64,000 nt of DNA from contig DVED01000049.1 of NCBI GenBank assembly GCA_015295945.1, positions 1 to 64,000 of the forward strand, in the 5' to 3' direction. Of the stretch, positions 2,863-29,429 are shown piece by piece. Numbering within the stretch: the first letter of the stretch is position 1; each line of letters begins with the position of its first letter. The notes beneath the pieces were generated by a model. That model was not told the origin of the DNA. It did no database searches and worked only from the letters and a program-made list of their open reading frames with translations. The stretch comes from Oscillatoriales cyanobacterium M59_W2019_021 (lineage in GTDB: Bacteria > Cyanobacteriota > Cyanobacteriia > Cyanobacteriales > Geitlerinemataceae). The position numbers and the translations under genes were made by a program.

Positions 2863-3447
2863 GCCAAGCGAAGCCGCTCGATCGAGAATTTGGGGCGATC
2901 TCCCGGAACCTTTTTACACGCAGTTCGATAAGCTCACCTGCGATCGATGCGATTGTAGGTGAGGCTATCGAAAAATCTTATGTTTTTGAGGCATAGATTT
3001 ATTTTTGTCTATAGCTCAAAATTTGTAAAAACGCAGATTATTTAAGTTTAAAGCCATTTTTTCTTCTTGACAATTGACATATTGTCAAATGTAGAGATAA
3101 AAATAACCCCTTATGGGCTTCGGAAAAATGGCGAGTTTTTTTCGGTTTTCCCTGTAAATTTATGTTAAGGTAATCGCCAGAGTCCGATACTCTAGAGGCG
3201 ATCGAACACACTTTTGCCCAAACCGCAAATCTCTCTCCGGGTCTTCGGATCTCCGTGTCTCCCCATCAGCCTCAATTCACAATTTGAATGCGTGATAGCT
3301 TAGCAAGGGAACCGATCGCCCGAGAATCTGTGGCTAGAAGACTTGGCGATCGAAAAATACGGTATTATAGTTGCGCCGTTGGGGCGCAGGTTTCCTCGCC
3401 GGATACCGAAACGACTGCTGTTCCCCGCTACCCCAGTAAGAACGATC
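2863..3447. other. Intergenic region without a convincing gene
   Basis: Short open frames here look like chance: composition is mixed, there is no ribosome-binding site and no recognisable motif. The only conspicuous element is the perfect dyad at 3074-3088, listed separately. The stretch just before 3448 is open in the glycosyltransferase frame but does not resemble protein-coding sequence. Confidence 0.5.
3074..3088. promoter_or_regulatory. Operator-like dyad TTGACA-N3-TGTCAA
   Basis: The sequence TTGACATATTGTCAA is a perfect 6-bp inverted repeat with a 3-bp spacer. The same architecture, with the same arms, occurs twice in front of petE at 28272-28304. It lies about 360 bp upstream of the glycosyltransferase start and about 210 bp upstream of the methyltransferase remnant. 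It is probably a transcription-factor site; the factor and the regulated gene are unknown. Confidence 0.4.
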
Positions 3448-27951: not shown

Positions 27952-28271
27952 CAGATATTCCTGAAGGTTCTGAGGTCGCGCGATTCTAGCGATTCCTCTT
28001 GGAGTCGGTTTGCTTCTCGATTTATGATGAACTCCATTGTGGGAACTGCCTCTCAGCGGCAAATATTCCCGCGTGTTGCATCGATCTTTCTCCACGACCC
28101 CAAATCTCCAGCGTGAAATTCCGCGATCGCCTCTCTCCGCCGTCTTTTCAGCGTTCCGCCCTGCGTCGTCGCTCCATCCGCATCGGTCAAGTACAACTGA
28201 CGTGGAAAACTCAACTGATTTTGACCGATCTGCGCCCAAAAATAAATCCAAACGAACCATTCGCGGTAAAA
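27952..28271. other. Upstream region of petE
   Basis: No gene is supported; the open frame that runs into petE from 28037 starts at a non-ATG codon and does not look coding. The region should contain the petE promoter. It is followed by two operator-like dyads, listed separately. Confidence 0.4.
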
Positions 28272-28304
28272 TTGACACAGTGTCAAACATCGACACCGTG
28301 TCAA
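28272..28304. promoter_or_regulatory. Two tandem operator-like dyads upstream of petE
   Basis: TTGACACAGTGTCAA (28272-28286) and TCGACACCGTGTCAA (28290-28304) are two inverted repeats of form TTGACA-N3-TGTCAA whose centres are 18 bp apart. They end 26 nt before the petE start codon. In Synechocystis petE is controlled by copper through the BlaI-family repressor PetR, and BlaI/CopY-type operators are short dyads of this general kind. Assigning these sites to a PetR-like factor is inference. Confidence 0.55.
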
Positions 28305-28330
28305 ACATCACCGAACGCTTGGAGCGCACG

Positions 28331-28708
28331 ATGAATTTAAAACGCTTTGTTTCAAAAACTCTCGGCTTAGCCCTGTGTGCCGTTGTCTTAGCCGTTAGCA
28401 GTCTTTTGTTGGGAGTCTCCCCCGCCTCTGCCGCAACTGTCGAGGTGAAGATGGGAGCCGATAGCGGTTTACTGGCATTCCAACCTGCCGAAGTCAAGAT
28501 TAAAGCAGGCGATACCGTTAAATGGGTCAACAATAAGCTGGCTCCTCACAACGTCGTGGTCGAGGGTCATCCGGAACTGTCTCACAAAGCCCTGGCTTTC
28601 AGCCCCGGTGAAACCTTTGAAGCGACCTTTAGCGATCCGGGAACCTATACCTACTATTGCGAGCCGCACCGGGGTGCTGGCATGGTGGGTAAGGTCGTTG
28701 TCGAGTAA
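28331..28708 (+). CDS. petE: Plastocyanin precursor
   Basis: The 125-residue precursor has a signal peptide of about 34 residues (ending SPASA) for export to the thylakoid lumen. The mature domain of ~91 residues starts ATVEVKMG. The copper ligands are His73 in LAPHNVV, Cys110, His113 and Met118 in [13 protein letters not shown]. It carries electrons from cytochrome b6f to photosystem I. The ATG at 28331 gives the correct leader. The dyads directly upstream suggest tight, probably copper-dependent, control. A terminator follows at 28745. Confidence 0.97.
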
Positions 28709-28733: not shown

Positions 28734-29429
28734 TTAAGATCGACCTCCTCCTTTCTGCTGATGGGAGGAGTTGTTTTTTGAGGACGATCGATTTTGCCAC
28801 CAAGTTCTGAGAGATCGTACTGCCTCGATTTCATCCTCCTTTGCCTCCTCGAGAAACGCATACAATTTCTCTTTAGGAACATCAGGAAATGTAGGACTCG
28901 CTTCAACTTCCACGTATACCCCTTCCCGAAGTTGATAAATTCGCCAGACCTTACCATTAAACCGCCAAAATTCAGGCACGCCAATGCCAGCATAAAACTG
29001 ATTTTTGGCGATGTCGGTATGAGTAATGTCTACTTCCACCACCAAATCGGGAGGCGGGTCTTGTTGGAAATCGACTTCGCGCCCTTTGACGAGGGGTTGG
29101 TTTTGGATGTAGTAAGCATTATCGGGTTCTGCGCCTTTTTTCAGATGCGGGTAGTTCATCGTCGTCGAACCCATGGTCTTCATCCGCAGTCCCATCAGTT
29201 CAACTAAGGTCAGAATAAAACGTTCAATTAACCGACCGGAAAATTCATGAGCTTCTAGTGGCACGGTGATTTCTAACACTCCATCATCGTAAGTCAAACG
29301 GGAGCCGCGAGATTGGGGGAGTGCGTCTAAAATTTGCAGATATGCTTTCCAAGATACGCCGTGCAGAACCACCCGTTGCTCTCCAATGGGTCGTAACTCG
29401 GCTTTGGGTTCGGGTGCGGCAACAATCAT
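28734..29429 (-). CDS. Uma2 family (DUF820) putative endonuclease
   Basis: The 231-residue protein has the Uma2 core: VSWKAYLQILDALPQSRGSRLTYDDGVLEITVPLEAHE, GAEPDNAYYI for the PD motif region, PPDLVVEVDITHTDIAKNQFYAGIGVPEFWRF for the E-x-D...K-type motif. It belongs to the longer subgroup with an N-terminal GxxWxxY element and differs clearly from the Uma2 protein at 19991. The C-terminal ~20 residues (SSSKNNSSHQQKGGG) are low complexity and overlap the petE terminator. Its role is unknown. Confidence 0.85.
   Translation of the reverse strand: MIVAAPEPKAELRPIGEQRVVLHGVSWKAYLQILDALPQSRGSRLTYDDGVLEITVPLEAHEFSGRLIERFILTLVELMGLRMKTMGSTTMNYPHLKKGAEPDNAYYIQNQPLVKGREVDFQQDPPPDLVVEVDITHTDIAKNQFYAGIGVPEFWRFNGKVWRIYQLREGVYVEVEASPTFPDVPKEKLYAFLEEAKEDEIEAVRSLRTWWQNRSSSKNNSSHQQKGGGRS
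28745..28779 (+). terminator. Rho-independent terminator of petE
   Basis: The stem CTCCTCC (28745-28751) pairs with GGAGGAG (28764-28770) and is followed by TTGTTTTTT. It lies inside the 3' end of the convergent Uma2 gene, so the GGGRS tail of that protein is encoded by it. Confidence 0.75.

Follow-up and report, generated by a model that had tools for sequence, protein, structure and literature searches.

The plastocyanin gene and its upstream dyads

The window, i.e. the whole stretch of 64,000 nucleotides analysed from contig DVED01000049.1 of Oscillatoriales cyanobacterium M59_W2019_021, contains a plastocyanin gene (petE) preceded by two inverted repeats. The features of the locus are listed below by position, strand (a dot where none applies) and description.

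28267..28272, +, possible -10 element TAAAAT just 5' of operator 1 (sequence reading only)
28268..28290,., predicted PetR operator 1, 23-bp site AAAATTGACACAGTGTCAAACAT (core dyad 28272-28286; 22.8 bits, matrix from other genomes only)
28286..28308,., predicted PetR operator 2, 23-bp site AACATCGACACCGTGTCAAACAT (core dyad 28290-28304; 21.3 bits)
28331..28708, +, petE, plastocyanin precursor, 125 aa (TIGR02656 with E=1.7e-38, above cut-off; PF00127 with E=1.9e-26)
28748..28770, +, terminator-like hairpin followed by a T run, 3' of petE (from a consensus scan alone; chance expectation 0.8)

A gene of the Uma2 family (PF05685; 28734-29429, minus strand) is convergent with petE.

As read from the window, dyad 1 is TTGACACAGTGTCAA (28272-28286), a 7-1-7 palindrome of the form TTGACAC-A-GTGTCAA. 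Dyad 2 is TCGACACCGTGTCAA (28290-28304). With TCGACA as the left half it reads TCGACA-N3-TGTCAA, one mismatch away from TTGACA-N3-TGTCAA. The initial annotation had described two operators of the latter form. Both dyads are present, but only dyad 1 matches exactly. The geometry given there, two 15-bp dyads with centres 18 bp apart and an interval of 26 nt between the end of dyad 2 and the plastocyanin start (ATG at 28331), agrees with the coordinates. The spacing had also been called close to two helical turns; 18 bp is about 1.7 turns of B-DNA, and the argument for cooperative binding drawn from two turns is weak. The 23-bp consensus sites deduced at petE (28268-28290 and 28286-28308) share 5 bp. 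Among the petE upstreams of relatives, a tandem spacing of 18-19 bp was seen again in two other families.

Occurrence of the motif in the genome and in the order

In the window alone, a loose pattern with up to two mismatches gave 3 matches against 2.06 expected, which is not above chance. The genome searched comprises 4.99 Mb in 212 contigs. In it, TTGACA-N3-TGTC occurs at about a dozen distinct sites, four of which lie within the promoters of petE (two) and petJ (two); the chance of finding 4 of 12 sites inside 600 bp is p ~ 1e-13. The pattern GACA-N3-TGTCAAAC has exactly four matches in the genome (two at petE, one each at petJ and sodC) versus 0.6 expected. A scoring matrix built only from genomes other than that of the window gave 22.8 and 21.3 bits for the petE sites, 23.1 and 17.9 bits for the petJ sites and 24.4 bits for the sodC site, and random sequence is expected to yield 0.1-0.2 sites per 5 Mb above 21-22 bits. 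The distribution of the TTGACA-N3-TGTC core over the genome is thus clearly non-random. The genome scan proposed in the initial annotation, for which a random distribution would have spoken against an operator, finds the motif again before petJ, beside petR and the gene of a PetP-like protease.

Several other matches were set aside. One with a single mismatch (C112:18531) is located inside a LysR-type gene, and the TTGACA-N3-TGTC sites on C74, C143, C149, C203 and C210 score 15.6 bits at most or are below the cut-off for listing, with unrelated genes adjoining. A third strong PetR-type site in the window (3070-3092, ACAATTGACATATTGTCAAATGT, 21.8 bits, 0.2 expected per 5 Mb) lies in A+T-rich intergenic sequence; the gene downstream of it is glycosyltransferase-like, and no copper link is evident.

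The comparison covered 100 genomes of the same order, with petR detected in 78 and not in 22. Plastocyanin scored above the family cut-off in 61 genomes, 57 of them with petR. The long motif GACANNNTGTCAAACWT was present in 40 of the 78 genomes with petR (16 families) and absent from all 22 without (Fisher p 2.6e-6); the genomes are related and not independent, and such p-values are therefore too small. The contrast also holds within families f2, f18, f19 and f29. Among 58 petE upstreams from genomes with petR, exact GACA-N3-TGTC was found in 24 (0.11 in dinucleotide shuffles) and GAC-N5-GTC in 38 (1.45 in shuffles), so that petE in most relatives with petR does not lack the motif, as it might have done had the operator proposal been wrong. 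Neither form was found in five petE upstreams from four genomes without petR. When the spacer k in GACA-Nk-TGTC was varied from 0 to 10, all 24 matches in the petE upstreams fell at k=3 and none at any other value. The consensus operator is a near-palindrome, AAGTTTGACA-N3-TGTCAAACTT, with a spacer of three and arms of ten, and its right half-site is conserved as strongly as the left. This definition can be used for finding PetR targets in other genomes. Most relatives carry one short dyad at petE, and about a third of the genomes with petR have no recognisable petE operator. An exception in the other direction is G018, a fragmented assembly with undetected petR, in which one petE has a site of 21.9 bits and a decayed second tandem copy; petR may have been lost recently, or may fall in a gap of the assembly.

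PetR, PetP and the position of the operator

The genome of the window contains a single BlaI-family gene, petR, followed by a petP-like gene. The gene for cytochrome c6 (petJ) is divergent from petR, and two TTGACA-N3-TGTC sites are located in the intergenic region. An adjoining petRP and petJ is recorded in GeCoViz (PMC9252766), and the same arrangement is found here. PetR has a Penicillinase_R winged-helix domain (PF03965, E=2.3e-29, 102.5 bits, cut-off 22.6). The CopY_TcrY model scores 40.6 on it, under the cut-off of 121.95, and a Cys-X-Cys metal motif is absent from all 19 PetR sequences examined; relief is therefore expected to come from proteolysis and not from metal binding. The PetP-like protein is a membrane protease with the HExxH motif in the form HENAH, for which M48 is above cut-off and M56 only below the Pfam cut-off.

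Among the named loci, each of the eight with petJ divergent from petR carries a site. Of all 80 named loci, 13 have one no further than 350 bp from petR, versus 0.15 in shuffled sequence. Autoregulation of petR was considered and rejected: the site goes with a divergent petJ and is mostly missing at petR elsewhere, and for that reason petJ is the likely target of the site between the two genes.

PetR of Synechocystis binds and controls petE and petJ (PMC7896320; PMC13421787). Without copper it represses petE and activates petJ, and with copper it is degraded by PetP (PMC7896320, PMC13421787, PMC12292863). By analogy, PetR would bind here when copper is scarce, repress petE and activate petJ; with copper present, the membrane protease PetP would destroy PetR, and petE would be expressed. 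The control of petE by PetR is already published for Synechocystis, and the operator consensus may already be contained in published PetR work. The mechanism behind the opposite effects of PetR has been called unknown in published commentary.

The promoters of the two genes differ in where the operator lies. Each of the 27 petJ promoters has TTGAC beginning at +8, counted from the centre of the operator, and most have a -10-like hexamer at +31/+32; a -35 and a -10 at these distances place the operator near -43. TTGAC at +8 was found at none of 42 petE operators. In many petE promoters the left half-site doubles as the -35, and a -10 follows at +15 to +18; in others the operator is downstream of the -10, and several with the -10 at +28 fit the position model more poorly. 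In the genome of the window, both petJ sites have TTGAC at +8, and the petE and sodC sites do not. An operator that abuts the -35 from upstream, as at petJ, would fit an activator, and one over the -35 and spacer or past the -10, as mostly at petE, would fit a repressor. This anatomy suggests that copper shortage switches a gene on or off according to where its operator lies with respect to the promoter. The difference in position between petJ and petE would explain how PetR may activate one and repress the other. The position rule, which is new in this analysis, offers a simple and testable answer to the double role of PetR.

For petE of the window itself, the consensus scan gave no promoter at the dyads, which makes the assignment of TAAAAT as a -10 a guess; if used, it would put both operators at or just past the start point. 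A good -10 suited to operator 1 as a -35 was likewise not found in this promoter. As no -10 is recognisable at the expected place, the repressor position proposed for petE of the window is taken from its relatives.

In three genomes (G080, G097 and G043) divergent petE and petJ share two intervening operators 18 bp apart, one followed by a petJ-type -35 and the other placed for petE. The arrangement suggests a single two-way switch.

Similar inverted repeats are used by many repressors, and another regulator (e.g. TetR-, GntR- or LexA-like, with a TTGACA-N3-TGTCAA site) might bind at petE and petJ with PetR as a bystander. This is improbable given the restriction of the long motif to genomes with detectable petR, also within families, and given that its targets include petE and petJ, both published as targets of PetR; moreover, the half-sites resemble the BlaI/CopY type. 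TTGACA is also the sigma-70 -35 consensus, and the left half-site does occupy the -35 in many relatives. That dyad 1 is a mere promoter hexamer with incidental palindromy is nevertheless extremely unlikely: conservation of the right half-site matches that of the left, petJ has the dyad plus a separate -35, and the dyads of the window coincide with no promoter in the scan. The dyads could also act as RNA, in one long hairpin of the petE leader (13-nt arms, 7-nt loop) that affects the stability or translation of the message. The dyad stretch does fold at -22.9 kcal/mol (z -4.0), but any two tandem palindromes would fold alike. A single short dyad is the usual state in relatives, and it often overlaps the -35 and is therefore not transcribed; petJ carries the same site in another arrangement, and no Rfam match was obtained up to E=1. 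A role as RNA is accordingly rated highly unlikely.

The dyads are best read as a predicted tandem PetR operator at petE, forming part of a copper switch whose sign is coded by position (probability about 0.88). They are very probably a real operator pair, and PetR's. The copper-linked, PetR-like factor of the BlaI family named as a candidate in the initial annotation is well supported, in sequence comparison, by the motif at petJ and petR, by its presence at petE of relatives and by its co-occurrence with petR.

PetR/PetP of Synechocystis PCC 6803 (slr0240-slr0241) likewise has just one BlaI-type gene, with a gene for a membrane metalloprotease behind it, and targets petE and petJ; the tandem 18-bp operator at petE is a difference. 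The Gram-positive CopY/CopR operator has the consensus RNYKACANNYGTMRNY (PMC7253601). Its half-sites (K-ACA ... YGT-M) are like those of PetR, often with two operators per promoter, and the pneumococcal CopY operator ATTGACAAATGTAGAT begins like the PetR operator (PMC7253601). The CopY spacer is 2 (KACA-N2-YGTM), whereas in the 24 exact petE upstreams it is always 3 and never 2. CopY has a C-terminal Cys-X-Cys metal site that PetR lacks, and its operators are mostly 24-39 bases apart, as against 18 for the petE dyads. Staphylococcal BlaI/MecI (TACA/TGTA) has the PF03965 family and a protease partner (BlaR1-like) in common with PetR, and PMC7253601 cites a pair of operators for the bla promoter. 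The PetR system differs in its half-site (GACA, not TACA), its spacer of 3, its copper rather than beta-lactam signal, and its dual action as activator and repressor.

A wider candidate regulon

The published PetR regulon comprises four proteins, those of petE, petJ and slr0601-slr0602 (PMC7896320, PMC12382314). Extra targets predicted here, relative to the Synechocystis system, are sodC and a His-rich protein, which may or may not correspond to slr0601/slr0602. The site of sodC, encoding a Cu/Zn superoxide dismutase, is AAGTCTGACAGCTTGTCAAACTT (G000 C126:7938-7952, G000 being the genome of the window), 59 bp before the start, and is identical to the petJ site over 17 bp. It has no petJ-type -35, and sodC would accordingly be predicted to be repressed. 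The sodC-type site was not found at the sodC homologues of 17 other genomes out of 391 (two starts unreadable). It may be a lineage-specific recruitment or chance; recruitment is favoured because of the 17-bp identity and the position before a gene for a copper enzyme.

The second target has the site AGGTTTGACAGTCCGTCTTTTGAC with a petJ-type -35 (G000 C30:21237), 92 bp before the start of a His-rich secreted protein, and is predicted to be activated. The protein has 167 aa, belongs to no named family and is 47% identical to its homologue in G080. In its family (28 genomes) most members from genomes with petR have the site, usually with TTGAC at +8, and none of three readable members from genomes without petR has it; the genes are often beside petJ, petR or petE. 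In the predicted structure a disordered His-rich part is followed by a beta-sandwich modelled with confidence. PDB matches of the model were to common FN3/Ig-like folds only, and the predicted structure therefore adds nothing on function.

Sites with a petJ-type -35 were also found at the genes below, some of whose products were identified from their similarity to a scanned protein.

TonB-dependent receptors: G019, G064, G081, G052, G061
ExbB: G042
OprB porin: G098
DsbD_2/ferric-reductase-like membrane proteins: G088, G054, G001
GLTT-repeat proteins: G033, G072, G059, G076
His-rich secreted protein: G080, G097

New candidate targets from the analysis thus include the superoxide dismutase as well as genes that may serve copper uptake. 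The chances are about even that PetR governs a wider copper-starvation regulon with the sign set by operator position, in which petE and, in this genome, sodC would be switched off, and cytochrome c6 and a copper-acquisition set (the His-rich protein and, in other lineages, TonB receptors, ExbB, OprB, DsbD_2/ferric-reductase-like and GLTT-repeat proteins) would be switched on. If so, bacteria would have an equivalent of the programmes by which plants and algae spare copper. In G042 (C1:4015229) a PetR-type site lies between divergent ExbB and TonB-like genes.
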